The notes beneath the pieces were generated by a model. That model was not told the origin of the DNA and searched no databases. It saw only the letters and a list, made by a program, of their open reading frames with translations. Shown piece by piece: positions 1 to 17,410 of a DNA stretch of 64,000 nt (position 1 is the stretch's first letter; each line of letters opens with the position of its first letter). The translations under genes and the position numbers were made by a program. This stretch comes from a virus. The DNA lies in the IMG/VR virus record IMGVR_UViG_3300006751_000008, positions 1-64,000 of that record, one strand, 5' to 3'.

Positions 1-3000
1 TATCTTCCGGTAGCTACTCATGGGATCAAATATGTCGATCTTGGTCCAGCCCCCGGACGAACCAGCGGTGGCGGTACGATGGTGGATAATGGAGAGGTAT
101 CAGTAAAGGTAGGTGCGTTTTCTGTACGAACAACGGGCGGTATCTACTTCCAACCGAGCGCGTCAGTGCAAATCAAACTGATTCAGTCTTTCGATATTGA
201 AGACGTAGAAGAAGGTGCTACAGAACAAGAGTTCGACACTACCGCAGGCGGTGGTACGGACACAGCAGAAGAAGCCGTTGAGAAGACCACGGAAGAGGCT
301 ACACAGCACGAAGAAGAGCACCACCAAGGGGTCAAGACCACGGGACCGACAGACGCCCGTGTAGAGGTGCATTTTGAGGCTGGTGAGGGTATCCGAATCC
401 TGAACACAGAATACGGGGATCTCAATTACCTACGAAAGGTCGGAAAAAAGTTCGGCCTACGATGGTCGAAAAAACAAGGGTTCTGGTTCTGGCCTAAGTC
501 TAGGCGGTGGGACTCTGAGGACCACAGGGCAGAGAAAGTCCACGAGATAGCCTCTGAACTCACAGGACATGGTTTACCTGCCAAAGGTGTTCAGGTTCTT
601 GCTCACTCTAATGAGGACAAAGCAGAAGAGACCACCTTTACAGATGTCGTCGAAGAGGCTTTGGAAGAAGCTGTAGAAGAAGCTGTAGAAGAAGCTGTAG
701 AAGAAGCTGTAGAAGAACAAGAGTTCGACACTACAGCAGGCGGCGGCACGCTTACCGAAGTGGTCGAAGAGGCTACAGAGGAAACGCAAGAGAACATTGA
801 CGCTGGTTGGGAGCGTATGCCCAAAGCCCACCACGAACTTGTAAATGCCGTGATGGTCTTGATGGAGCAGGCGGCAGAGGTAGGCGTAGAACATGATGTG
901 TTGGAGACACTGATTGACAAGATCAACGCAGTCGTAAGCGCATACGCAGGAGAGAAAGACCCGGCTGCTGCTGTAAGTGCGTTACAGGCAGACCTTGTGT
1001 CTCTGTACCAAGCCATTGAGCAACATCATGCTGTAGAAGAACCCACAGAAGAGCTAGACACAGCAGAGGAAGAAGCTACCGATACAGGTGGCTCGACTCT
1101 TACAGAGGTTGTCGAAGAAGCTGTTGAGGAGAATCGTCCAGACATTACCGAATGGGATTGGTCTTCCGCTCCTCAAAAAGCACAAGAAGGAACCATCCGA
1201 GAAGCGTCCGAGATAGCCACAGCGGCAGGTGCTCCTATTATATCCATAAACGAAGACACCGACATGGACACTGTGAAGAAGATTCTATCTTCTGCTTTGG
1301 GATATAAAGAAGGGGACGACATAGGCCACTACGCCAGGGTGGTGCTGGAAAACAACCCCACAGGGGTTGTCATCCATATTGGAGACATCGGTTCTTTCTC
1401 AGGAGAGGCGCACACCAAGGTCGCGGCGAAGATCAATACCTTGAGGAACTGGTTGTTCCGCTACGCCAACAATGTTGGGCGCAAAGAAGAAAACAAGGAA
1501 GGAATCAAACCTATCCGGGTTCTGTATTCCACACCTAAAGCGATAGAGAACAGCCCTCTTCAATCTATGGCGGAGGCTATTAGGGCCAAAGAACTGGCTT
1601 CTGAGTTGAACAGACCTCTGAAAGATACGCTGACTTATCTAGGCCTCTATGTAGACGAATCCCAGGAAGAAGAGATTGATACCGAGGGTATGTCCGAAGA
1701 AGAGCTAGTGGCTCTTCGAGAAAAGATGGAGGAGGATCGAGCGAATGTCCGGGCGGCTATGGCAGAAGAGAAGACACGTATTGAAGAAGAGAAACGTCTT
1801 CGGAAGATAGAATCAGACGCTGCCGGTGAGGCGGCTCTTGAGCGTATAGCAAAGTCGAAAAAGCGAGAGACTCGTTTCGTGAAAGCATCCAGGGCTCTTG
1901 TTTCTGTGCGAGGCGAAGACGCTATCGACAATATGAGACGCGCTAACGGTGCCTGGACGGAGTGCATTGATCACGACAAATATATCACGGCGGCGACTCA
2001 ATCAGACGACGCAGAAGACGCTCCTGCAATCGCTATCTTTACGGCGCGGGAACTCAAGAAGAAGTATGGAGACAAGTACCAGTTCATTACAGAAAAGAAC
2101 GAAAACGGTCTTACGACTGTAATGGGCAGGTGGGTAGACGGGGACGACTTCGACAAGGAAGACTCGGAGCCTGAAGAGATCACAGAAAAAGAGAAGAAGA
2201 GCCGTAGGAGACACAAAGAAGTAGGAAAGCACGTCTACGGATCACGCTTAGATCAAGCGCGGAATATCACGGCGGAATCTCTCTTGGATATGTCTGAGGT
2301 AGAGCAGAAGAAGATAGTAACAAAGAAGAGCCTTGCTCCAAAGATGGACGCTACGGAGGCCCGTTTACAGGGGGAACGTCCCGATACATTCCTTATGAAA
2401 AAGTGGGTGTGGGGACTTGTAGGAAGCAAAGCACCCAATAGTTTAGAAGGGCGACAGAACTACATAGAGGGCATTGATCTTGTCACTAGGACGTTGGATA
2501 TCTGCCACACTCCAGAGGATGTCCTTGCGGCTGTCCAAGACCTTGCGTTCCTTCGCTCTGGTTACGAATACACCGACTCCGTTCAAGCAACGCACGGGTA
2601 CACGCCTGGAATACGTTCGCAGACTCCTGCCGGAATAAGCAGGTATCGCAGCGAGTCCTATAGTCACCACCAAGAAGAGCGTACCTATAAGACGGTCAGT
2701 AGTGAATACAGTACGCTGAAGACGGCTGCTGGAGAGATGAGCCGAAGCGATGTAAAGAGTAAGCTAGATAGTTTAGGGGATCGTTTCTATCGTGCCGTAG
2801 TACAGAGAAAGCGTTCCAAGAAGGATCTAAAAGACTTCGAGCAGATACGGTTGTGGGGCATCAGCGTAGTTGAAGCGGGCGTCCATGGCGGTCCTGGTGG
2901 GTTCATTGATACGACAACAGACCTTGACTGGGCTGACGCCAGAGCAGCTACAGGGTCAAACCTTCCAGAAGAAGAGATGTGGCGAGATCTTGGTGTTCGA

Positions 3001-4377
3001 GAAGAGGCTAGTCAGAAGGCCAAAGAGAAAGCCAAAGAGAACAAAACAGAGAAGCTCGCAAACCGATGGAGCAGAGAGGTTCCAGACGATGTTATGCGTA
3101 GCGGTAACGTCAAGAAGGTAGAGAAAGCCGACGCCAAAAAGATGGCGGAAGACTTCAACCTGACAAATGTACAGTTCGGTAAATACATTAGCGACTCTGA
3201 CGCAGAGCACCACTTGAAGAACTGTCATGGTGCTTTGTATGATTTGGCTGAGATGATGGACGCCAAGGATACGGACATCTCCATGAAGGGTCGTTTGGCT
3301 ATTGGTATCGGTGCTCGTGGGCGCGGACGCGCTGCCGCGCATTACGAACCTAGCCGGAAGATTATCAACCTGACAAAGTTTGCAGGTGGCGGAAGTCTCG
3401 CCCATGAATGGGGCCACTTCATGGACAACATTCTAGCAGAAGGCATGAACCTCAAAGGCGTGGATGCAAAGACTGCACCTAATGTAAGCGACTCAATGGC
3501 CAAGTATTTCGATACAGAGGTCATGATAAACAAATTCATGGCGAACAAGCCCGTGTCTGAGGTGGAGCGTATGCGTCCTGTTCTTGAGGCATTCCGCGAG
3601 GTGTGGGCAGCGATGCGCTACGATAGTGTAGAGACACGCAATAGATATATGTATGGCGAGGGTTATGTAGACGTGGAGGTAGGCGTTGGAGAGACCAAGT
3701 TTGCTACTCACTCTGACGCTATGGGTGACTATTGGTCACGACCTCACGAGATGTTTGCACGCGCTTTCGAGAGCTATATCTCGGACAAGCTGGAGGCCAA
3801 GGATCGAAGCAACTCGTACCTAGTCGCAGGAGTAAATACGGCCTACGCGGTAGCGGGGAAGATGGTCCAGCCCGATCCTGTGGCGATGGCAGCTTGGCGT
3901 ACCCGAGAAAGAGAGCACAACGCGAAGCACAAAGCAGCACAAGCAGAGCATTTCAAAGAAGAGTTCACGAGAGCCGAAGAGGTACTACAAGCTGCTTGGG
4001 ACGATTGGAATCAGGAATGCTCTATTCAAGCGCAGGCTATTCTCGCTACAGGGAAGCGGCGTTCAGAGAGTAAAGCAATGAGCGATGCTCGATACACGCC
4101 CGAGGCCCAGGCTAAGGGGAATGTTTGGCATACCCTCAACGCGCAGAAGAAAGCGATGCAGAAAGCAATGGATGAAGTAATGCCTCCTGTGCCTTTCCCG
4201 GAAGAGAGGCCCCAACCAGAAGCGGCGCAGCCTTATCCGATGGGAGAAGAGCGCAAGAAGATAAATGCCTCGTTCGACAAGTTGGTTGCTGTGTTGAAAG
4301 CAGCGGATGCGCTGTCCAAGGCTCTTCTACGAATACAACGTCTACAGACGTTCTCAGACTTGATCGGGGGTAAATAA
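1..4377 (+). CDS. Large polyvalent (LPD1-type) phage protein with HEWGH metallopeptidase motif, 5' partial
   Basis: The frame is open to the first base of the window, so the gene starts upstream; the first ATG inside is at 79 (1432 residues from there). Numbering from that ATG: a compact N-terminal domain (about 95-170), then Glu/Val/Ala-rich linkers with the phrase EQEFDTTAGGGT occurring twice, long charged helical stretches (about 560-620), and a C-terminal domain. That domain contains GARGRGRAAAHYEP, then AHEWGHFMD with H1109, E1110 and H1113 forming a HExxH zinc-peptidase signature, then YWSRPHEMFARAFESYI. This combination resembles the LPD1 domain of phage and conjugative-element polyvalent proteins. 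Such proteins are thought to be delivered into the host with the DNA and act early; that role here is inferred. It sits directly before the portal gene (1-nt TAATG overlap), consistent with a virion protein. Confidence 0.8.
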   Translation, partial: YLPVATHGIKYVDLGPAPGRTSGGGTMVDNGEVSVKVGAFSVRTTGGIYFQPSASVQIKLIQSFDIEDVEEGATEQEFDTTAGGGTDTAEEAVEKTTEEATQHEEEHHQGVKTTGPTDARVEVHFEAGEGIRILNTEYGDLNYLRKVGKKFGLRWSKKQGFWFWPKSRRWDSEDHRAEKVHEIASELTGHGLPAKGVQVLAHSNEDKAEETTFTDVVEEALEEAVEEAVEEAVEEAVEEQEFDTTAGGGTLTEVVEEATEETQENIDAGWERMPKAHHELVNAVMVLMEQAAEVGVEHDVLETLIDKINAVVSAYAGEKDPAAAVSALQADLVSLYQAIEQHHAVEEPTEELDTAEEEATDTGGSTLTEVVEEAVEENRPDITEWDWSSAPQKAQEGTIREASEIATAAGAPIISINEDTDMDTVKKILSSALGYKEGDDIGHYARVVLENNPTGVVIHIGDIGSFSGEAHTKVAAKINTLRNWLFRYANNVGRKEENKEGIKPIRVLYSTPKAIENSPLQSMAEAIRAKELASELNRPLKDTLTYLGLYVDESQEEEIDTEGMSEEELVALREKMEEDRANVRAAMAEEKTRIEEEKRLRKIESDAAGEAALERIAKSKKRETRFVKASRALVSVRGEDAIDNMRRANGAWTECIDHDKYITAATQSDDAEDAPAIAIFTARELKKKYGDKYQFITEKNENGLTTVMGRWVDGDDFDKEDSEPEEITEKEKKSRRRHKEVGKHVYGSRLDQARNITAESLLDMSEVEQKKIVTKKSLAPKMDATEARLQGERPDTFLMKKWVWGLVGSKAPNSLEGRQNYIEGIDLVTRTLDICHTPEDVLAAVQDLAFLRSGYEYTDSVQATHGYTPGIRSQTPAGISRYRSESYSHHQEERTYKTVSSEYSTLKTAAGEMSRSDVKSKLDSLGDRFYRAVVQRKRSKKDLKDFEQIRLWGISVVEAGVHGGPGGFIDTTTDLDWADARAATGSNLPEEEMWRDLGVREEASQKAKEKAKENKTEKLANRWSREVPDDVMRSGNVKKVEKADAKKMAEDFNLTNVQFGKYISDSDAEHHLKNCHGALYDLAEMMDAKDTDISMKGRLAIGIGARGRGRAAAHYEPSRKIINLTKFAGGGSLAHEWGHFMDNILAEGMNLKGVDAKTAPNVSDSMAKYFDTEVMINKFMANKPVSEVERMRPVLEAFREVWAAMRYDSVETRNRYMYGEGYVDVEVGVGETKFATHSDAMGDYWSRPHEMFARAFESYISDKLEAKDRSNSYLVAGVNTAYAVAGKMVQPDPVAMAAWRTREREHNAKHKAAQAEHFKEEFTRAEEVLQAAWDDWNQECSIQAQAILATGKRRSESKAMSDARYTPEAQAKGNVWHTLNAQKKAMQKAMDEVMPPVPFPEERPQPEAAQPYPMGEERKKINASFDKLVAVLKAADALSKALLRIQRLQTFSDLIGGK
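664..717 (+). repeat. 12-bp tandem repeat, about 4.5 copies
   Basis: The in-frame unit GAAGCTGTAGAA is repeated four times without change, followed by a further GAA. It encodes EAVE repeats in an acidic linker of the polyvalent protein. The copy number is a likely site of slippage variation. Confidence 0.9.
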
Positions 4378-6020
4378 TGGCTTGGTATGATTTCATTCTT
4401 GGAAAGAAAACGGGCGCGTTAGAAGTTATCGAGAAGGGTAACTATAACGGAGCAAAGGCCTCGGAAGGGCCTGCTCCTCTTCCCAAGTCTTGGGAGATAG
4501 ACGCGGGCGACTATGCTTTCTCTGAGATGCAAGCCGCTCTTGGGATTGATACGCAAGAGGGAGCAAACGGGCTCGATTTCAAGACACTCCGAACGATGTC
4601 TCGTATCCCTCTGATTAGCGCGATCATCAACACTCGAATCAATCAGGTCGCGGAGTTTTGCATACCGCAACAGACGCCCTATTCTTTGGGATATCGTATT
4701 GTCTTACGTGATCAGAAGGACGACCCAAGCCCTGCCGATGTCAAACGCATTGAAGAAATGACCCGTTGGGTTTCTACCTGTGGAGACACACGTCTTGGGT
4801 ACGATAACCGCTTTGAGACTTTTATTCGTAAGGTTCTCCGTGACAGTCTTGTTTTTGATCAGGCTTGTTTCGAGGTGGTCAAGACGCGAGGGGGGAAGAT
4901 TGCCGGGTTGCTTGCTGTGGATGCTAGTACCATTCGACGAGCTAAGTTGTCAGAAAAGGAAATAAAGTCCGGTCGGTACGATCCTGCGAAGACCGGGTAT
5001 GTGCAGGTACTAAGCCAGAAGAAGGTCGCTGAGTTCGATAGTGACGAGTTGGTTTTCGGTGTACGGCGTCCACGGACGTGGATCAAAAGCAACGGCTACG
5101 GATATCCAGAGCTTGAAGAGCTTATCCGAGTTGTGACGAACCTGCTCAACGCAGAGAACTTCAACGCGAACAACTTTACTCACGGTATGCACGTCAGTGG
5201 TATCTTGGCTGTCAAGTCTAAGATGAACCCCCAGCTATTCCGTAGCTTCCGGCGTGAGTTCTACGCGATGCTTTCGGGCGCAGCAAATGCACACAGAACA
5301 CCTATCATCCAGCTAGACCCGGAAAACAAGGAAGAGCTACAGCAGGTGAACATGAGCCAATCCAACAAGGATATGGAGTTCACTTCGTGGTTGAGTTTCT
5401 TGTTACGTCAAGCATGTATGGTGTACGGAATGGACGCGGCAGAGCTTGGTTACCAGTACGGTAACGAAAATCAGACCAGTTCCATGAACTCAGGCGGTCC
5501 CGGAGACCAACTGACGTATTCGCGAGAGCGTGGTCTACGCCCGATGCTTCGGTCAGTCCAATCGTGGATAAACAGCGGAGTCATCTGGAAGATTGATCCT
5601 GAACTCATGATCGAGTTCGTAGGTTTCGATTCGATGTCCGAGAGCCAGAAAGTAGACCTGGATATAAAGGCTTGCCAGAACTTCCGAACGATCAACGAGA
5701 CCCGCGCCATGTACGACTTGGAGCCGTTGGAGTCTGCTGTTGGTGATATGATCATGAACGCCAGCTACATGAATACAGCTTCCATGATGGACGCGCAGGA
5801 AGGTGGCGACGAAGAAGGTGCAGGCTTTGAAGGTGGCGAAGGTGGCGACGAAGAAGGTGCAGGCTTTGAAGGTGGCGACGATGAAGGCGCGGACTTTGGA
5901 GGCGACGACGACTTCGACGTAGACAAACTATTGTCTGGGATAGGCGGAGAGACCGAGAAGGTCCAGAAGAGCCTGAAACGCAAGCCGAAGATAACATCGG
6001 TCACTGTGGAGGTAGAATGA
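4377..6020 (+). CDS. Portal protein
   Basis: This 547-residue protein has the layout of a phage portal: a long N-terminal wing, a central region with NFTHGMHVSGIL, and the stretch QTSSMNSGGPGDQLTYSRERGLRPML near residues 365-390 that is characteristic of phage portal proteins. Portals form the dodecameric ring at one capsid vertex through which DNA is packaged and the tail attaches. The C-terminus (about 463-515) holds repeated acidic GGDEEGAGFEGG units, an unusual flexible tail. The start overlaps the preceding stop by 1 nt. Position ahead of MuF, protease and capsid genes fits the usual head-gene order. Confidence 0.85.
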   Translation: MAWYDFILGKKTGALEVIEKGNYNGAKASEGPAPLPKSWEIDAGDYAFSEMQAALGIDTQEGANGLDFKTLRTMSRIPLISAIINTRINQVAEFCIPQQTPYSLGYRIVLRDQKDDPSPADVKRIEEMTRWVSTCGDTRLGYDNRFETFIRKVLRDSLVFDQACFEVVKTRGGKIAGLLAVDASTIRRAKLSEKEIKSGRYDPAKTGYVQVLSQKKVAEFDSDELVFGVRRPRTWIKSNGYGYPELEELIRVVTNLLNAENFNANNFTHGMHVSGILAVKSKMNPQLFRSFRREFYAMLSGAANAHRTPIIQLDPENKEELQQVNMSQSNKDMEFTSWLSFLLRQACMVYGMDAAELGYQYGNENQTSSMNSGGPGDQLTYSRERGLRPMLRSVQSWINSGVIWKIDPELMIEFVGFDSMSESQKVDLDIKACQNFRTINETRAMYDLEPLESAVGDMIMNASYMNTASMMDAQEGGDEEGAGFEGGEGGDEEGAGFEGGDDEGADFGGDDDFDVDKLLSGIGGETEKVQKSLKRKPKITSVTVEVE

Positions 6021-9000
6021 TGAGTAACCTTTTCTCAGATATAGTGAAGGGCGGCAAAGAAGGCGGGACATACACAAGCCGCAAGCGTGTCCTGAAGAAA
6101 GACCCAAAGACAGGTCGGATGTCCTGGGGTTGGGGGGATTACAAGTACACAGAGAAGAAGAAGAAGAAGAAGCAAAGCACCGCAAGTGATGGCGAGAAGT
6201 CTACGAAGAAGAAGACGAAGACCGTATCTGAAGGAGCTTCGGTAGATGAAGGCAAGACCTCTTTAGAGCTTGTACGTGAAGCGATGAAGGCTGCGGGACT
6301 GCATGAGCATGTCATACGCGCAAAGGTAAAGCACGAAGGCCAAACATTGGCAGATGTCGCTGCGGAAGCCAAAGAAGCGCGAAAGAAGATAGAAGACGAA
6401 AAAGCAGACAGAAGAGCAAAGCGGGAAGAGGCGCAGAAGAAGAAGCGAGAAGAACGGGCGAAAGAGTCTGTAGTAGATGCAGTAGAGGAAGATACAGCGG
6501 TAGAGGCTCTAAAGGATCAGGAAGAGGTTGTAGAGACCGTAGATACAACCGTGGACCCCGTAGAGATGGCGCAGAGAGGACTGGTCCGGTTGGTTCGTAA
6601 GAACAAAGACGGGATCGAAGTGGCTAAGTGGGTGACGGGACAGACATACCAATTCCACAAAGAGAACAAAACGGAGTTTTGGGACACGACCGATGCTCCT
6701 GTTTCTGAAGCCGGAAGTAAGGCGCGTCGAGAGGCAGGAGAGAAGCTAAGAAAAGAACAGACAGAAGAAGAGAGTAAGGTTCTCGCTGCCGAAGAGTTCG
6801 ATATGGGTAACCTTGTTGAGCTAGAGGCTTTCAAGGTTTCGGAGAACAGACCTCCGAACTTCCTCGGACTTATTGCACAGGCGGGTGTAGAGGGAGATCC
6901 TCTCAGTCTTGAGCAGTACCGAAAAGGCCCGTTTACCAACTACCGAATAGACGCGACGGCTCTGCGTAATACAACCCTTCCTTCTGGAGAGTACAACATA
7001 AAAGACCTGACGCCTCTACAGCTACTCCTACACACAGGAATGCTGAACAGGCCCCCTGAAGGTCCACTAAATAACTTCCAGGAAGAGTTTTTCTTCACAC
7101 TTGTAGGCAGGAAACAGAGGTACTCTCAGCTTTCTCCAGCGATGAAGAACATCTACGCGCCTATTGCTAGGAACCTAGCCGGTTGGTGGACGAACCTCAC
7201 AGATACCGAGAGACAGGCGTTTTGGGACACCTTTGTGGACGAGGATTGGCAGACTACTGTCGGTAAGGTCGCAGACAAACGGCACGAGAACGCTGATATG
7301 CCTCTTCCAGAGGGTATGAACAAGTTCAAGGAGAAGGGATATAACTTCCATGAATACCAACGAAAAGCTGTAAACTTTGGCGACACAGCCGGACGTGCGA
7401 TTTGGGCTATGGAGATGGGACTAGGAAAGACTCTCGCCGCTATCGGGCTCTTCCACCAACTCCGCCAACGTGGGGAGGCAGACCGTATGTTTGTTACCGC
7501 ACCTCTTTCGGCACATGGTTCGTGGGAGGAGCACTTTCGAGACTTTTCCGACTTGGGGGACGACGCCGATAAAAAGACAGGCAGGTTGAAGAAGGGGAAA
7601 ACAATCATCCTAACAGGAGCTTCCAAGAAGCAACGCCTAGCTGCTTACGAGGCTTGGGATAAAGGGGAGACCAAGGCCCTGGTTGTCTCTCCAGATACAG
7701 TCGCAAAAAGGTGGGTAGAGACTCCTGGGGGTCTAGCCCTCAATCCTGAAAAAGACCAGCACGATATACCGGGTAGGTGGGAAGAAGAAGAAGGGAAGAA
7801 AAGACCGAAGAGTCCTGAGGCCCAAACCGTAGAAGCGGAACGGAAACAGGCCCTGAAGGATTATCCCGATGGTACGTCTATCCGTATCACAGACTCCAGC
7901 GGCAAGCCGCGTCGGTACTTCAAGAAGCAGGGCGGGCAGTGGTACGCAGGGGACGCTTTCAAATACAAAGAAAACTCCTACAGGACAGTAACAATACAGG
8001 AAACTGAAGCTACCTATGCTCTTATAGAAGGACACGAGACAGACACAGAACAAGGTGTCATGGACGAGATGGAGAATCAGGTTCTTGCTTATCTCCGGGA
8101 CTACAAAAACTCTCGTAATACTCGTGGCTTGAAAGAGCCTTCCATGGAAGTCATTCCTCCCGATTCTGATTATCAGATCATCAAGAACATGATGGAGAAG
8201 CACGGGGAGACTACTCTCCGAAACGCGGACGAGCTACACAAGTTCAAAGACCCGAAGAGTGCTCGTGGTTCTGGTTTCGTAGATGCCATATGCAGACCTC
8301 CCGGACGAGTGGTCGGTATGACAGGGACGCCCAAACCTAACGGGGCAGAAGACTTCTACCATATCGTAAATGCAATCGCTCCAGGCACACTTGGGGACAC
8401 AGTAAACGATTTTGCTGACCGATACTGCTACACAGACGGCAAAGACAAGAAGATCCTCGGTTTCCGCCCGGAAGAGTTGGGCACTATGTACCGAGATTCT
8501 GGTTCTGCTTTCTTCGCACGAACTACGGCTGACCCGGATGTAGAGATCAATCTTCCAGAGCGTGTCGATCTATCTCCCCGTATCCCAATGGATGATGTGC
8601 AGGAGCAGATCTCCACACGCCTTGTCGAGTGGATGAAGATCCGAAACAAGATAGCTAAACTGAACGCCATGGCTCGGGGGAGCGGGGAGCGCGCAGAAGC
8701 GGCAGGAATGGAGGCAGAAGCCCTCCAAGATATGCTTGATAAAGCCCGTTCTGACGACAACGAAGATGCAATCGACAGGACAGCAGCGAGGGCTGCTCCA
8801 TGGGATCACCAAGTGGCTATGATGAGGTGGCAACAGCTTGCTGTAGATCCTAGCCTCCTGGATACACAAGAAGGGTATTCCCGAAGGTTTTCCGACGACT
8901 ATCCTGGGTACTTGAGCCCGAAACTCGATAACGTGACAGACGCCTGTATGACGCACCTTACGCAGAACCCGGATAAAGGGGCTGTGATTTTCTGCGAATA

Positions 9001-9616
9001 CAACGGTGGGGTACGAGGAGCAAAGCAGGCACTCATTCAGAAGGGCCTGAAAGAGTCCGATATCGGTGTCTACACAGGAGCTACTTCGGCAACGAAAAGA
9101 AGACAGCTACAAGCGGACCTAAACGAAGGAAGAATCAAGGTTCTTGTTGGTAACACAGCAGCACTTGAGACCGGGGCAAACCTTCAGAAAAGAGCGAACT
9201 GGGTGGGTATGCTAAACACTCCTTGGGATCCTGCGCGTCTTACGCAGTCCATTGCGCGTGTTATGCGACAAGGACAGACAAGCAAGGTTATCGTCTACCG
9301 TCCTACTGGGTCGCACGTCGAAGAGCAGATCGAGAGGACAGTATCCAGGAAGATTCTGCAAGCGGCACAGGCCACAGGCAGGACAATGGAGGCGGACGAC
9401 GCTATTGCGGGCTCTATGCGTAAACCAGGGAAAACCGGAACCTCTGCCGCCATTATCGCGGAGATTCTCGGAGTAGACCCTAGCGTATTCATGAAAGCCG
9501 ACGAGAAGCCTCTCACTCTTGAAGAGATGGAAGAGAAGCAGCGTGAAGATGCCGATAGAGCACGCGAACGAGCAGCTAAGAAAGCGGCCAAAGAAAACGC
9601 AGAAGGAGAAAAGTAA
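6017..9616 (+). CDS. SNF2-like SF2 helicase/ATPase located in the head module
   Basis: 1199 residues. The N-terminal 270 residues are Lys/Glu-rich and start with a GG-T-x-x-RK...W type motif. The helicase core follows: Walker A MEMGLGKT (K471), motif II DELH (D738, in place of DEAH), motif III GMTGTPKPN, and a C-terminal helicase domain (about 985-1120) ending with RLTQSIARVMRQGQ. K471 to D738 is 267 residues, much longer than usual, because of an insert of about 150 residues containing PDGTSIRITDSSGK and GGQWYAGDAF. It overlaps the portal stop; an alternative ATG lies one codon downstream. SNF2-type proteins use ATP to translocate on dsDNA. Location between portal and MuF suggests the protein may be packaged and injected, which is an inference. 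Confidence 0.8.
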   Translation: MMSNLFSDIVKGGKEGGTYTSRKRVLKKDPKTGRMSWGWGDYKYTEKKKKKKQSTASDGEKSTKKKTKTVSEGASVDEGKTSLELVREAMKAAGLHEHVIRAKVKHEGQTLADVAAEAKEARKKIEDEKADRRAKREEAQKKKREERAKESVVDAVEEDTAVEALKDQEEVVETVDTTVDPVEMAQRGLVRLVRKNKDGIEVAKWVTGQTYQFHKENKTEFWDTTDAPVSEAGSKARREAGEKLRKEQTEEESKVLAAEEFDMGNLVELEAFKVSENRPPNFLGLIAQAGVEGDPLSLEQYRKGPFTNYRIDATALRNTTLPSGEYNIKDLTPLQLLLHTGMLNRPPEGPLNNFQEEFFFTLVGRKQRYSQLSPAMKNIYAPIARNLAGWWTNLTDTERQAFWDTFVDEDWQTTVGKVADKRHENADMPLPEGMNKFKEKGYNFHEYQRKAVNFGDTAGRAIWAMEMGLGKTLAAIGLFHQLRQRGEADRMFVTAPLSAHGSWEEHFRDFSDLGDDADKKTGRLKKGKTIILTGASKKQRLAAYEAWDKGETKALVVSPDTVAKRWVETPGGLALNPEKDQHDIPGRWEEEEGKKRPKSPEAQTVEAERKQALKDYPDGTSIRITDSSGKPRRYFKKQGGQWYAGDAFKYKENSYRTVTIQETEATYALIEGHETDTEQGVMDEMENQVLAYLRDYKNSRNTRGLKEPSMEVIPPDSDYQIIKNMMEKHGETTLRNADELHKFKDPKSARGSGFVDAICRPPGRVVGMTGTPKPNGAEDFYHIVNAIAPGTLGDTVNDFADRYCYTDGKDKKILGFRPEELGTMYRDSGSAFFARTTADPDVEINLPERVDLSPRIPMDDVQEQISTRLVEWMKIRNKIAKLNAMARGSGERAEAAGMEAEALQDMLDKARSDDNEDAIDRTAARAAPWDHQVAMMRWQQLAVDPSLLDTQEGYSRRFSDDYPGYLSPKLDNVTDACMTHLTQNPDKGAVIFCEYNGGVRGAKQALIQKGLKESDIGVYTGATSATKRRQLQADLNEGRIKVLVGNTAALETGANLQKRANWVGMLNTPWDPARLTQSIARVMRQGQTSKVIVYRPTGSHVEEQIERTVSRKILQAAQATGRTMEADDAIAGSMRKPGKTGTSAAIIAEILGVDPSVFMKADEKPLTLEEMEEKQREDADRARERAAKKAAKENAEGEK

Positions 9617-11066: not shown

Positions 11067-12169
11067 TGAAAAGGCGTGTCCTACAGGCTGCGATCAAAGA
11101 GATGATTCGGGCACACCACGAGGCGTTCGTCGTGGAGCTTTTCGGACATGACAGATTGGGTATGTCTGCCGAAGAAGTACAGCGTATGTGGGACAAGGAT
11201 CTGTTTCCAGACACTAATATGCTGACTGGTGTAAAGATCTCTATTCCAGGGTTCCCCGATGAAATAAACCCTTTCGAGTACACAGCACTCGTCGCAGCAG
11301 CCACGAATAAAGCCACACAAGAGCAAAGAGAAGCGATGCGTAGCTGGGGTATCAATGAGTGGAACAAAGAGCTAGGCAAGGAGCTTGCCATAAGAGAGGG
11401 GGAGGAAGCGGCATACGCAGAAGAGAGGGCACGAAATATACCTAGACCCGAGAGCCAAGCTGTCGGAACTATCGATATGTCTCGCCCGTCTTCCGCAAGC
11501 ACAGAGCCTCCCACAACACGGTTGCCGATAGCTCCAGAAGTACAGGTTCCAGAATGGATGAGTTCTCAGGAGGAGTATTCCTATAAACAGGCTATCACCT
11601 TCGCGGGGGACTTCTGCCGAGGGCTTGGTAACAAGGTATCCGATAAAGCAGACGAATGGCTTGTAGAGTCGTGGGATGGCGAACAGATAGTAGACGAGGT
11701 GGACCCCGAAAAACGAGCAGCCATTCTCGCGATAATAAGAGAGAAAGTAGCCGACGCGATAAAGTACCACTGGGACAGCGGCCAACTGTCACGGGAGTTG
11801 GCGAATGCTACCGGGAACTGGTCTCATAACTGGGAGATGATCGCTAGAACAGAACTACAGGCTGTCTATAACGAGGGCATGGTTCTAGGAGCAATCGAGG
11901 ACTACGGCAAGGACGCCCGAATAGCAAGACTCCCAGAGACAGACGCTTGCAGACACTGCGAACGGTTGTTTTTGGATGGGGGAGGATTACGGATCTTCCC
12001 TGTACAGGAACTGATTGGTAACGGAACAAACGTAGGAAGACGCGCAGCATCTTGGGTTGCGACAATCTTTCCGGTTCACCCAAACTGTCGTTGTGATACT
12101 ATCGCTGTGCCTCCGGGATTCACAGTGACCCGAGATGGCAGACTTAGGAGAGATTCCGAGCAGTCATGA
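11066..12169 (+). CDS. MuF-like minor head protein
   Basis: 367 residues. The C-terminal third has the hallmark of the phage Mu gpF/SPP1 gp7 family: ARTELQAVYNEG at about 262-273, then DACRHCERLF and HPNCRCDTI, with paired Cys and His residues likely binding zinc. Members of this family are minor capsid components near the portal and are sometimes ejected with DNA. The N-terminal two thirds are helical and less conserved. It overlaps both neighbours by 1-4 nt, in the standard portal-MuF-protease order. Confidence 0.8.
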   Translation: MKRRVLQAAIKEMIRAHHEAFVVELFGHDRLGMSAEEVQRMWDKDLFPDTNMLTGVKISIPGFPDEINPFEYTALVAAATNKATQEQREAMRSWGINEWNKELGKELAIREGEEAAYAEERARNIPRPESQAVGTIDMSRPSSASTEPPTTRLPIAPEVQVPEWMSSQEEYSYKQAITFAGDFCRGLGNKVSDKADEWLVESWDGEQIVDEVDPEKRAAILAIIREKVADAIKYHWDSGQLSRELANATGNWSHNWEMIARTELQAVYNEGMVLGAIEDYGKDARIARLPETDACRHCERLFLDGGGLRIFPVQELIGNGTNVGRRAASWVATIFPVHPNCRCDTIAVPPGFTVTRDGRLRRDSEQS

Positions 12170-12888
12170 AAACCTTCGACTCATTTAGCGTCTGGACGCC
12201 CTTTGTGGCCTTAGAGAAGTCCACAAGTAAGCCAGAGCCTATGACCGGGCGGATTGGCGGGATTATATCCACTGAGTCCAAGGATTTCCAAGGTGAGACC
12301 ATCACGCAAGATGGCGTTGATTGGTCCTACTTCATGAAACACGGCTGGTTCAACTACGAACACCAGTCCGGTCCAGAGAATGTTCTAGGGCACCCCGAAA
12401 GAGTCACAACGCAAGGGGGACAAACCCGTGTCGAAGGAGTCCTTTATTTGGCAAAGTCCAAAGCAAAGGAAGTGTTCGAGACTGCTGTTGCTATGTCGAA
12501 GGCGGGCAATATGCGGACGTTGGGCTTTTCTGTCGAGGGACAGGTACTAGCCCGTGAGAAAAAAAGAATCTTAAAGGCGCGGGTTTTAAATGTTGCTGTG
12601 ACAGCACATCCAGTCAACCCGGACGCCCGTTTAGAGGTGCTCTCCAAGGCGTTTGGTGCGTCTGTTGGGTACCAGACCCCTGCCGGAATGGGCGGCAATA
12701 TCACGCCACTCATTCCGCAATCCCTTGAGTCGGTTCCAGCTATCGCTTCTTATGGAGTATATGCTATGAACCGCAAGAAGTTGACAACACAAGACCTAGC
12801 CCTGCTTTTGCACACTACGTTTCCGAAGTTGGGTCATGGAAAGGCGTTGTCTATAGCTGTAGAGATAGCCCGAGTCGTTGGAAGATGA
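12166..12888 (+). CDS. Prohead maturation protease
   Basis: 240 residues. The pattern of the phage prohead serine proteases (HK97/S78-type fold) is visible: TGRIGGIISTES at the start of the domain, WFNYEH with candidate catalytic H66, and LGFSVEG with candidate nucleophile S122. These enzymes cleave scaffold and capsid N-termini during head maturation, and themselves. Residues 167-188 (VGYQTPAGM followed by PLIPQSLE) match a segment near the N-terminus of the major capsid protein, suggesting a common processing or binding site. ATGA overlap with the MuF gene. Confidence 0.8.
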   Translation: MKTFDSFSVWTPFVALEKSTSKPEPMTGRIGGIISTESKDFQGETITQDGVDWSYFMKHGWFNYEHQSGPENVLGHPERVTTQGGQTRVEGVLYLAKSKAKEVFETAVAMSKAGNMRTLGFSVEGQVLAREKKRILKARVLNVAVTAHPVNPDARLEVLSKAFGASVGYQTPAGMGGNITPLIPQSLESVPAIASYGVYAMNRKKLTTQDLALLLHTTFPKLGHGKALSIAVEIARVVGR

Positions 12889-12924
12889 AGGGCCTAACCC
12901 CAAAGTTACAGAGGAGATCTTCTG

Positions 12925-13587
12925 ATGAATCAAGAGCTTTATGACCAACTGGTCAATGAAGGTATCTCTGAGGCCAAAGCCGAGCAGATCGCCAAGTCAC
13001 ACTTTTCGGGCACTCCCGAAGAGGTTGATGCGGAACGATTGACCAAGGCTCTTGAAGGCCTTCGGGAAACCATGGAAACACCCGTAGACAACAACCCACA
13101 GGTTGACTTCTCAGCACCGCCCGTTGCGGACTCTGATGATGTCATCGGTGCTATCACGAAAGGCGCAGATGCAATCTTGTTCCAAAACCGTGAGCACATC
13201 GAGCAACGTGCTTCCGCACAGGGCACCATTCTTGACCGACAAGACGCGCTTCTCAAAGGCGTTCTTGCACTAGGTGAGTCTGTTGCACGTATCGAAGAGC
13301 GTTTGGATGGTAAAATCGCCAAGGGTCTTAGCAATGTCGCTAACCAACTGGCGCAGCCTGCTGCACATCGTTCAGTACAGTCGGAACTTATCCCCACACC
13401 GGGCGATGTTTCGCGTACCCAGGACATGAGTCGTGCAGAGGTTATCTCCAAGGCTCTACACGAAATGGGCGGTACACAAGACTGGAGCCGTCGCGCTAGT
13501 CTTGGACAGGCCGTTTCTCTTCTCGAAAGTGGCGAAAATGTCGCTACTGTCGTGTCTAACTATAATATCACCACAACGGCCAGCTAA
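12925..13587 (+). CDS. Probable capsid scaffold or assembly protein
   Basis: 220 residues, largely helical and acidic at the N-terminus, with a probable coiled coil at about 85-145 (QNREHIEQRAS...ARIEERLDGKIAKGL). No family recognised. A position between maturation protease and major capsid protein, plus the coiled coil, is typical of scaffolds; this is an inference. The start has a good GAGGAG ribosome site. Confidence 0.6.
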   Translation: MNQELYDQLVNEGISEAKAEQIAKSHFSGTPEEVDAERLTKALEGLRETMETPVDNNPQVDFSAPPVADSDDVIGAITKGADAILFQNREHIEQRASAQGTILDRQDALLKGVLALGESVARIEERLDGKIAKGLSNVANQLAQPAAHRSVQSELIPTPGDVSRTQDMSRAEVISKALHEMGGTQDWSRRASLGQAVSLLESGENVATVVSNYNITTTAS

Positions 13588-13601
13588 GGAGGCTCTAAGC
13601 C

Positions 13602-15047
13602 ATGATCGACATTCCTCAGATCAACAGTATGGTGCCGGTCAGTGACCTGATGCAACTAAATGACGCTTTGCGAAAAGCGGCAAATGTTGGATATCAGACT
13701 CCTGCTGGCATGAGTTCGGGGAGCGTTTCTCCCCTTGTACCCCAATCCATCGAGGGAACGCTTGCAAGCGCGACCTATACGATGAAGGAACTGGTTCTCT
13801 GGCCAGCACTTGCCAAGCGCAATGTCGGACAGACGGTCCACGAGTTCACTCGTATCGAAGATCACGGTCTTGATTTGGACCCGTTTATCGCTGAAGGCGG
13901 TGGCGGAATTACCAATAAAAGCGTGTATTCTCGGGAGTTTGTGAAAGTCAAGTACCTTGCCGAACGTCGGGAAGTCAGCGATGTCGCGGCGATGGTAAAT
14001 CCCATCATCGGGCCATCCCCCAACGTGCTCGCAGAGGAGACCACACGCGGTACTCTCCGTCTTCTTCAGAAGCTGGAGCGTGCTTTGTTCTATGCTGACA
14101 GCAGCCTGAATGACCAACAGTTTGATGGTCTTTTCAAGCAGCTTCAGACAGGTACTCCAGGCAACTTCTTCGACTTGAAGGGTGAAGGCCTTACGGTTGA
14201 CTTCCTACAAGAGAAGTTGGGCGAGACTTACGGTGCTCCGAACTTCGGGCGCGTAGACACCATTTATGTGGAGCCTCGCGTACACCAAGACCTGATTCGT
14301 CAGACTGTTTCTTACGGTCGTCACGATCAGCTTCAGGTGTCGGATGCGTCTAGTCTTACTTTCGGAACTCGTAACCTGTCTATCATGGCTCCTTACGGTC
14401 CTGTTAGCATCAAGGCTGCTCCGTTCCTTCATAAGGCACACGCAGTACCTTCAGCGGGTTCTGGTACCTCTGATGCCCCGGCTGCTCCGACGTTGAACTC
14501 GGCGGCGCATAACGGCGGTAACTCAGATACTTCGGCTTGGGCTGCTTCGGATGTAGGCGACTACATTTGGTCGGTTGTTGCAGTAAACGACAAGGGCTTC
14601 TCTGCCCCTGCTGCTTCTAACCAACTTGGTGTATCTGCTGGACAGAAGATTGAGTTCTCAATCAATGACCATGCTGTTACAACAAAGGCCGATCCCGATC
14701 CAGCAAACGCTGTGAAGTATTACCGTATTTATCGTTCCGATAAGAACGGTGCTGCAAACACCGGAAAGTTGATCAAGGAGATTCCTGTCAACGCAGACGG
14801 TGCGACTTTTGCTGGAAATGCTGGAACGCTTGTCGCAGACTTGAATGGTGATGTTCAGAGCACATCCAATGTGTTGGCTCTGTCTCACGATCCAGGTGTT
14901 TGCGAAGTGGTACGGCTCTTGGATTTCATGCGTCGTCCGCTCGCGGAAGTTGCTACAACCAAGCCTTTCCTCTTGATGTTATTTTTGAGCCCGATTTTGA
15001 AGGTAAGTTCCAAGACTTTCGGGATAAAGAACGTAGGCATCGGTTAG
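13602..15047 (+). CDS. Major capsid protein with inserted Ig/FN3-like domain
   Basis: 481 residues. After a short N-terminal segment with VGYQTPAGM (residues 29-37) comes PLVPQSIEGTLASATYTMKELVLWPAL, typical of capsid proteins in which the downstream part starts the mature chain. The body has features expected of an HK97-like fold (RREVSDVAAM, LQKLERALFYAD). Residues about 285-430 (APAAPTLNSAA...YIWSVVAVNDKGFSAPA...KYYRIYRSDKNG) look like an inserted FN3/Ig domain that would decorate the capsid outside. The C-terminus (ALSHDPGVCEVVRLLDFMRRPLAEV) returns to the capsid core. Strong AAGGAGG ribosome site. Confidence 0.85.
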   Translation: MIDIPQINSMVPVSDLMQLNDALRKAANVGYQTPAGMSSGSVSPLVPQSIEGTLASATYTMKELVLWPALAKRNVGQTVHEFTRIEDHGLDLDPFIAEGGGGITNKSVYSREFVKVKYLAERREVSDVAAMVNPIIGPSPNVLAEETTRGTLRLLQKLERALFYADSSLNDQQFDGLFKQLQTGTPGNFFDLKGEGLTVDFLQEKLGETYGAPNFGRVDTIYVEPRVHQDLIRQTVSYGRHDQLQVSDASSLTFGTRNLSIMAPYGPVSIKAAPFLHKAHAVPSAGSGTSDAPAAPTLNSAAHNGGNSDTSAWAASDVGDYIWSVVAVNDKGFSAPAASNQLGVSAGQKIEFSINDHAVTTKADPDPANAVKYYRIYRSDKNGAANTGKLIKEIPVNADGATFAGNAGTLVADLNGDVQSTSNVLALSHDPGVCEVVRLLDFMRRPLAEVATTKPFLLMLFLSPILKVSSKTFGIKNVGIG

Positions 15048-15949: not shown

Positions 15950-17410
15950 ATGGCGTCGATATTCGACGAGCTAACCCCCGGCTGGCTGAAGGACCGCTTT
16001 CTTGTAGGCGTTGACCTCACACTAGATGATGGCACGGCTTACCCGGAAGCGGTCTTCACACAGGCCGTCGCTGGGGCTGTTCGATACATTGAGCACGAAC
16101 TAGGTATCGTGCTCGACCCGGTGAAGGTCACGAGCGAGAAACACGACGCCTTTGAACTCAATAGGTCGGGCTTCTGGCCGTTTCGCCTGGATATGCGTCC
16201 TGTGTGGACGGTTACGGGCTTTCGTATCAAATACGGTAGCTACGAACCTCTCTCCATACCTCTCTCTTGGATACACACGGTGTCTCCAATACATGGGCAG
16301 GTAAATCTTATTCCTTCGGAGGAATCGCTAGGAGGCTACCTGTACAGTTCCGGTATGCCGTTAATCCTCGGGGACGCTTTCCAACCCCTTATGTACGTTC
16401 CAGGCTACTTCGAGTTCGATTATACGGCAGGGTTTGCCACATTGAATGGCACAGCGACCTTTGCCGATGGGGTGGTAACAGCAACCGTTCCAGTTTCTCC
16501 GCAAGCACTCATGCCTAACTACGACGTTGAGTTGACTCTTGGGAGTCCTAATAACGGCGCAGCAGGACCAGTCGTAACCGAACGAACACGGGACAACTTC
16601 ACGATCTCGCTAACGACTCCCCCCGAAGGCGGGAGCGCGTCCGTATCTTGGTCTTTGAGCGCAGTACCGGCGGACCTGAAGCAGGTTATCGGGCTGAAAG
16701 CTGCTGCTCTTCCTTTGGATATCGCGGGCGATCTCTTGGTTGGTGCGGGAATCGCTTCCACAAGTGTAGGCGCGGATGGGCTGCATATGTCCGTCAATAC
16801 AACTTCTAGTGCAACCAACTGTCTACATGGTGATACCAAACTGCTTCTTTCTGATGGTACGACAGACACGATAAAGAGCCTAACCGAACAGCACGGAAGA
16901 GACGGGACTGTCTCCGTGAAGTGTCTTGATGCGAACGGGGCAGAGACTACGGGCACAGCTACCAACTTCCATGTGACAGGTAGCAGTGACAAGATGTACG
17001 ACATCCTCTTGTCCAACAATATGCGGGTAGTGTGTACATACAACCATCCTTTCCGAATCGCTGCTTTCAATGCGAAAGACGGCACAGTCGTCCATAACTA
17101 CTACAAGCACGCGGAAGAGCTTCAGGTAGGCGATGAACTCGCTACTGTTATGACTTCCAACGAAGGACTGCATCCCGACGATCCGCGTCGATATACGAAC
17201 ATCTATGTGAAGAAGATAGATCCCGCAATACCAGAAGACAGAGTGTACGATTGCACTGTAGCAACGCACCATAACTTTGCTCTGGATAGCGGTATTGTCG
17301 TTCACAACAGCGGATATGGTGCCCGCGTCTTGCAGTTTGAACGAGAACTAAAGGCACTGCTCCCAGCTTTGCGGGCTAAATACAAGTCTGTGAATATGGG
17401 AGTCATCTAA
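15950..17410 (+). CDS. Head-tail connector protein interrupted by a mini-intein
   Basis: 486 residues before splicing. Residues 1-290 and 454-486 form the extein; the N-terminal part (ELTPGWLKDRFLVGVDL..., AVRYIEHELGIVLDP) resembles head completion/connector adaptor proteins, and the far C-terminus (SGYGARVLQFERELKALLPALRAKYKSVNMGVI) is helical. Residues 291-453 are a Hint-domain intein, described separately. After splicing the connector would be 323 residues. The gene sits between the head-fibre-like gene and neck genes and overlaps the next gene by 1 nt. Confidence 0.8.
   Translation: MASIFDELTPGWLKDRFLVGVDLTLDDGTAYPEAVFTQAVAGAVRYIEHELGIVLDPVKVTSEKHDAFELNRSGFWPFRLDMRPVWTVTGFRIKYGSYEPLSIPLSWIHTVSPIHGQVNLIPSEESLGGYLYSSGMPLILGDAFQPLMYVPGYFEFDYTAGFATLNGTATFADGVVTATVPVSPQALMPNYDVELTLGSPNNGAAGPVVTERTRDNFTISLTTPPEGGSASVSWSLSAVPADLKQVIGLKAAALPLDIAGDLLVGAGIASTSVGADGLHMSVNTTSSATNCLHGDTKLLLSDGTTDTIKSLTEQHGRDGTVSVKCLDANGAETTGTATNFHVTGSSDKMYDILLSNNMRVVCTYNHPFRIAAFNAKDGTVVHNYYKHAEELQVGDELATVMTSNEGLHPDDPRRYTNIYVKKIDPAIPEDRVYDCTVATHHNFALDSGIVVHNSGYGARVLQFERELKALLPALRAKYKSVNMGVI
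16820..17308 (+). other. Mini-intein (Hint domain, no homing endonuclease)
   Basis: A 163-residue in-frame insert running from C291 to N453 of the connector. Splicing motifs visible: block A CLHGDTKLLLSDG starting with the catalytic Cys; block B CTYNHPF giving T363-x-x-H366; block F VYDCTVATHHNFAL; block G GIVVHN, with penultimate His and terminal Asn, followed by Ser as the +1 extein residue. No LAGLIDADG or HNH segment is present between blocks B and F, so it is a mini-intein that cannot home by itself. Confidence 0.9.

Follow-up and report, generated by a model that had tools for sequence, protein, structure and literature searches.

The head maturation protease encoded in the window carries, in a predicted flexible linker behind its catalytic domain, a segment resembling the N-terminal arm of the major capsid protein of the same virus. 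The two segments co-vary across phage families, and this substrate-like segment probably serves the protease as a tag for docking or recognition. The window, i.e. the whole stretch of DNA analysed, comprises 64,000 nucleotides (positions 1 to 64,000 of the IMG/VR virus record IMGVR_UViG_3300006751_000008). Targeting of a protease via a shared segment is an already known kind of mechanism; to our knowledge, the present segment is new to the literature in deriving from the mature arm of the capsid protein itself and in co-varying over many phage groups, and no earlier description of a capsid-arm copy in a protease was found in the open-licence literature.

Judging by their phrog_1028 and phrog_752 matches, the protease and capsid genes of the window are the head module of SPO1-type phages (Table 1). 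By profile and fold, the first gene product is an SPO1-type head maturation protease with a gp21/assemblin-like fold and predicted activity on the capsid protein and itself: the top Foldseek match was T4 gp21 (PDB 5jbl, E 5.4e-5), which has the same protease fold, followed by weak matches to herpesvirus proteases. In the AF2 model (32 sequences), residues 1-158 and 201-240 were confidently folded, with pLDDT mostly >84 in the catalytic domain, while residues 159-199, spanning the shared segment, had pLDDT <50 and probably form a disordered linker. The C-terminal mini-domain is predicted to consist of helices 208-218 and 224-239; a comparable helical tail is also present in proteases without the N-arm copy. 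The capsid protein, in turn, is an SPO1-type (HK97-fold) major capsid protein as judged from its match to the SPO1 capsid (PDB 9vel), with E 4.7e-22 by sequence and 2.5e-31 by fold. The virus also has a tail-sheath-like gene, and no prophages bearing the protease profile were found in a profile search of genome contigs.

Table 1. Features of the protease-capsid region (window coordinates)
Feature	Position	Strand	Basis
Protease ORF, 240 aa	12166-12888	+	phrog_1028 head maturation protease, E 1.1e-44
Protease catalytic domain, residues 1-158	12166..12639	+	phrog_1028 match, conserved residues, fold
Conserved His66 of protease	12361-12363	+	nearly invariant in 32 relatives
Conserved Ser122 of protease	12529-12531	+	invariant in 32 relatives
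Capsid-N-arm-like segment of protease, residues 157-196	12634..12753	+	alignment; AF2 disorder; core 12664-12729
Putative self-cleavage site K161/A162 of protease	12646..12651	+	aligned with capsid K25/A26
C-terminal helical mini-domain of protease, residues 201-240	12766..12885	+	AF2 pLDDT 80-96
Scaffold-like protein between protease and capsid genes	12925..13587	+	position as SPO1 gp3.3; without shared segment
Major capsid protein, SPO1 type, 481 aa	13602-15047	+	phrog_752, E 1.8e-55
Putative propeptide of capsid protein, residues 1-25	13602..13676	+	AF2 helix, K25, 9row_B boundary
Shared segment of capsid protein, residues 21-59, mostly mature N-arm	13662..13778	+	core 13686-13754
Putative cleavage site K25/A26 of capsid protein	13674..13679	+	homology with 9row_B; K25 invariance; 9vel_B length

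The head module of the Herelleviridae (SPO1 gp3.2/gp3.3/gp6.1, GH15/812 and P100) resembles that of the window in gene order, protease and capsid families, the K-S/A boundary and the paired segment. It differs in that the Herelleviridae segment is lineage-specific (PDTQxDAGALRRE, EGGxxFRxESL), and the window capsid protein is 23-27% identical to its Herelleviridae counterparts. The window record, which may be a fragment, has 66,362 bases versus 106-164 kb for the Herelleviridae records, i.e. less than the roughly 100-170 kb of a Herelleviridae genome. A 24-kb contig (L003, IMGVR_UViG_3300025096_000130) encodes a protease and a capsid protein 100% identical to those of the window and is possibly the same virus.

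Several features of neighbouring genes were also observed. A head/tail gene (ORF 15950-17410) is interrupted at 16820-17308 by a 163-residue mini-intein (Pfam Intein_splicing, E 1.2e-10) lying between ...SSATN and SGYG..., an interruption that the L004 and L007 homologues lack at that point. A 1199-aa SNF2-like helicase gene (6017-9616) follows the portal gene inside the cluster of head genes. In Thermus phage Lalka8 (L012:5577-7747), the capsid gene is directly followed by an annotated CRISPR repeat region and a gene of the TnpB family.

The paired segments are present at exactly the residues named in the first-pass annotation, i.e. VGYQTPAGM-GGNIT-PLIPQSLE at residues 167-188 of the protease and VGYQTPAGM-SSGSVS-PLVPQSIE at residues 29-51 of the capsid protein. 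The full match is longer than first noted, with 23 identities over 38 aligned positions, and takes in an upstream K-A dipeptide. A degenerate DNA pattern for VGYQTPAGM matched the 66,362-base record only twice, in the protease and capsid copies, and the reversed control pattern gave no match in that record. When the protease tail was aligned locally with the N-terminal region of the capsid protein, the score was 110, against a maximum of 54 among 200 tail shuffles (z 14.3). While the segment is short, as a reading by chance or low-complexity similarity would have it, this z in the window and the median z of 10.2 across 53 phages leave that reading a negligible probability, and shuffles and cross-pair tests rule it out.

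From a resemblance of the DNA it had been suggested that one copy may derive from the other. The VGYQTPAGM stretches of the window are identical at 22 of 27 nt, with all five differences synonymous. However, at the 22 identical residues the two copies use the same codon 8 times, where codon usage would give 7.1, and they share no identical DNA stretch longer than 6 nt (p=0.80). The DNA similarity in the window thus does not exceed what the shared amino acids impose, and recent DNA copying there is ruled out. Since codon matches at identical residues are no more frequent than codon usage predicts, the similarity is held at the protein level, i.e. the resemblance is, on codon evidence, maintained by selection on the proteins. 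In one relative, L083, the protease (676-1422) and capsid (2153-3535) genes share an identical run of 28 nt, which was reached in 0 of 2000 simulations, survives a 54-test correction and suggests recent gene conversion between the two copies. The copies of Thermus phage phiMa share a run of 26 nt (p=0.0015; not significant after the 54-test correction), and the same-codon total over all pairs (509 versus 469.5 expected, sd 15.9) shows a small excess. Copying between the two genes thus seems to happen occasionally.

Gathering related loci by capsid and protease profiles and from annotated phages gave 54 non-redundant pairs, which cover the clade of the window virus, the Herelleviridae (SPO1, GH15, P100), and Thermus and enterobacterial phages. 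All 54 capsid proteins have an N-arm of the corresponding type, and the protease copy is full in 46, half in two (L113 and L118) and missing in six (DAC16, SJC03, L041, L107, L110 and L111). The protease and capsid segments read TGHGTSPDTQVDAGALRKE and TGYGITPDTQIDAGALRRE in GH15, KSLEAGYEVDPEKMEGGDVFRKESL and KALEAGHTVNPLDLEGGGAFRVESL in SPO1, and TAGDPHALDPKSGLTGVPAIRRES and TAGDPHALDFKAGLTGVPAIRLES in phiMa (L125), respectively. The clearest case of pairing is phiMa, in which both proteins read TAGDPHALD-K-GLTGVPAIR-ES, unlike other phages. In L042, L104, L028 and L030 the segment lies 30-60 residues further downstream in the protease with K-[A/G] still ahead, and in Lactobacillus phage LfeInf (L127) the capsid gene precedes the protease gene, the segment nonetheless being common to both.

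Relatives in which one copy is conserved and the other absent had been named beforehand as evidence against a paired role. Such pairs do exist (the six above), and in every one of them it is the protease that lacks the segment. With loss confined to the protease, the segment probably originated in the capsid protein, and the protease version would be a mimic that the phage can do without. The proteases of L041, L107 and L110 end instead in long, highly acidic tails, perhaps another loading route.

It had also been proposed that both segments be compared for co-variation in related phages, and across families this holds. Protease tails scored a mean of 85.9 with their own capsid arm and 51.3 with foreign arms (p<=5e-5, 0 of 20,000 permutations), although the permutations leave some phylogeny in, and independent events are fewer than phages. 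The own-pair excess is also seen within 15 Herelleviridae (p<=5e-5) and among representatives picked for distant protease cores (n=23, p<=5e-5; n=14, p=5e-5; n=6, p=0.0011). Within the 27 members of the window clade it is modest (own 90.6 versus cross 80.3, p<=5e-5), and there an off-diagonal Mantel test was not significant (r 0.02) and the partial correlations of the protease segment are near zero. In Herelleviridae, the segment shows partial correlations of 0.40 +/- 0.20 with the capsid body and 0.35 +/- 0.13 with the protease core. Under a single old duplication followed by independent evolution, own and foreign pairs would score alike, whereas own pairs score higher.

The similarity is confined to the protease tail. 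Against the capsid arm, 45 of 53 protease tails gave z above 5, whereas scaffold proteins (median z 0.2, 0 of 53 above 5) and protease catalytic domains (median z 0.02, none above 5) did not. K-S dipeptides are in fact enriched in scaffolds (175 observed versus 61 expected in 21 named phages), and Herelleviridae scaffolds (L010, L011, L119-L132) are dense in these likely cut sites. As these K-S-rich scaffolds lack the segment, many likely cut sites do without it; the idea that it serves as the protease's general recognition sequence is therefore not borne out, and the scaffold controls rule it out as a general cleavage motif.

As for the position of the cut, the capsid copy had been placed just before the mature N-terminus, with both copies forming a shared recognition or cleavage site. 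However, the capsid chain of 812/GH15 (Kayvirus) begins at S25, right after K24, in PDB entries 9row, 9rox and 9roz, and this homologous K24/S25 boundary, read from the deposited chain 9row_B, puts the segment inside the mature protein. In addition, 445 residues are resolved in the longest SPO1 chain (9vel_B), i.e. 468 minus 23, which fits a start after K23; 30 relatives of the window capsid protein all share its K25, and the AF2 capsid monomer shows a helix at residues 13-26 in the propeptide and then an arm with pLDDT <50 at residues 22-47. Given the Kayvirus chain start, the window capsid protein would be cut between K25 and A26, just upstream of the shared segment, which would make the segment the mature N-terminal arm. 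The upstream start of the homologous mature chain speaks against cleavage inside or after the segment (residues 38-51), which was therefore rejected. By alignment, the protease would be cut at K161/A162. K-[S/A/G/T] precedes the segment by a few residues in nearly all capsid proteins and proteases, with K/R-[S/A/G/T] also noted in protease relatives. What stands of the shared site is that the segments are functionally paired and adjoin the putative cut in both proteins; the segment itself is not the cut site. The N-terminal sequencing published for phiEF24C concerns the tail fibre, not the capsid protein (PMC3201976).

Two flexible copies of one peptide suggest, on the structural models, that both bind at one site on a third surface, i.e. 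either the capsid lattice or the protease itself. We tentatively favour the former, a reading that we would place just short of probable, in which the linker, as a mimic of the capsid N-arm, anchors the protease inside the prohead and the cut lies beside it. The flexible linker between the catalytic and C-terminal helical domains would imitate the mature capsid N-arm of its own phage, with a lysine cut site at the upstream edge of the imitation. During assembly, the protease tail would dock on the capsid lattice at, or at sites like, those receiving the capsid N-arm, which would admit protease molecules to the prohead in limited numbers and place them near the K-S/A sites of capsid protein and scaffold. 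The active protease would then cut both and, immediately ahead of the docking segment, its own chain, so that the catalytic domain could work elsewhere or exit. Residual protease is contained in virions of Listeria phage CKA15 (PMC12282133). Docking is favoured by the length of the match, the absence of the segment from the scaffold, the apparently ordered N-arm of mature SPO1, with the 445 residues resolved in 9vel_B implying that a lattice site for the arm sequence exists, and the targeting signal reported for the C-terminus of the HK97 protease. It is somewhat more doubtful, but still tempting to speculate, that proheads of SPO1-like and several unrelated tailed phages load their maturation protease via such mimicry of the mature capsid N-arm, i.e. 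through a co-evolving, substrate-derived address tag that is self-cleaved and occasionally refreshed by DNA copying.

A close rival, which we regard as a reasonable though less than probable explanation, is extended substrate recognition, in which an exosite of the protease reads the N-arm segment downstream of the lysine. The capsid segment would then ensure efficient cutting at one place, and the protease segment would be a built-in substrate or pseudo-substrate occupying the enzyme until self-cleavage. In its favour, K-[S/A/G/T] directly precedes the segment in both proteins, and the first residues past the cut also match. The K site moves with the segment (in L042, L104, L028, L030, SPO1, EalM132, Goe26 and Yen801), which fits recognition as well as it fits docking, and the HK97 Prohead I N-arm around K103/S104 is unstructured and so accessible to a protease (PMC10275583). 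On the other hand, scaffolds have many K-S sites without the segment, AF2 does not confidently pack the tail against the catalytic domain (pLDDT <50), and six phages retain the capsid copy without the protease copy. Moreover, the resemblance continues for as many as about 35 residues beyond the cut (about P35'), more than the active site of a protease normally reads. That the segments reflect common descent or recombination only, i.e. an old duplication with DNA conversion between nearby genes and no binding role for the protease copy, is unlikely. The identical runs in L083 and phiMa and the small same-codon excess speak for it, but codon matches are at usage level in the window and nearly all relatives, the similarity is restricted to the shared segment, and the motif is retained when displaced (L042) or when gene order differs (LfeInf). 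Still less likely, the self-cleaved tail fragment may remain inside the head and occupy N-arm positions as a minor structural peptide, e.g. in lattice vacancies near the portal vertex: after a cut at K161, the C-terminal fragment would begin like the mature capsid N-arm, but the CKA15 proteome lists the protease as residual, without positions (PMC12282133).

Docking by an N-arm copy is not general, as the proteases of HK97, D3 and T4 lack the segment, and in the six phages without the protease copy the protease must be loaded otherwise. HK97 gp5 is likewise cut after a lysine (K103/S104), with the N-arm as mature N-terminus, and the gp4 protease has K-S and then a predicted-helical tail. However, gp4 has no N-arm-like segment (score 26, z -0.3), hhalign gave no homology of the window protease tail to gp4 (probability 0.4%, alignment in the catalytic part only), and in HK97 a domain of the capsid protein serves as the scaffold, unlike the separate scaffold-like gene of the window. 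Duda and co-workers (2013), a study cited in PMC12749128, reportedly found a capsid targeting signal in the C-terminal part of the HK97 protease. The HK97 N-arm is disordered in Prohead I and lies roughly in the scaffold's place in Prohead II (PMC10275583). No N-arm-like segment was found in the D3 protease, and the T4 gp21 tail shows no similarity to the gp23 N-arm (z 0.03). T4 gp21 also cuts targeting sequences off internal proteins. Short targeting sequences are used by the T4 internal proteins (PMC9024508).

How a prohead protease is admitted into the forming head and restrained until completion is poorly understood. Known loading routes are fusion or DNA sharing with the scaffold (herpesviruses, lambda) and, in HK97, a C-terminal signal that is still unexplained. 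In herpesvirus UL26/UL26.5 and lambda C/Nu3, the protease enters the procapsid by a segment common to another head protein and then frees itself; in those systems one stretch of DNA encodes the common part, which is scaffold, whereas that of the window resembles the capsid protein itself, is separately encoded and co-varies with it. A substrate-derived tag found from Herelleviridae to Thermus phages would offer a concrete region of SPO1 to delete or swap. The segment would also mark the mature capsid N-terminus in uncharacterised phages, and, used as a tag, could direct foreign proteins into heads of the SPO1 type.
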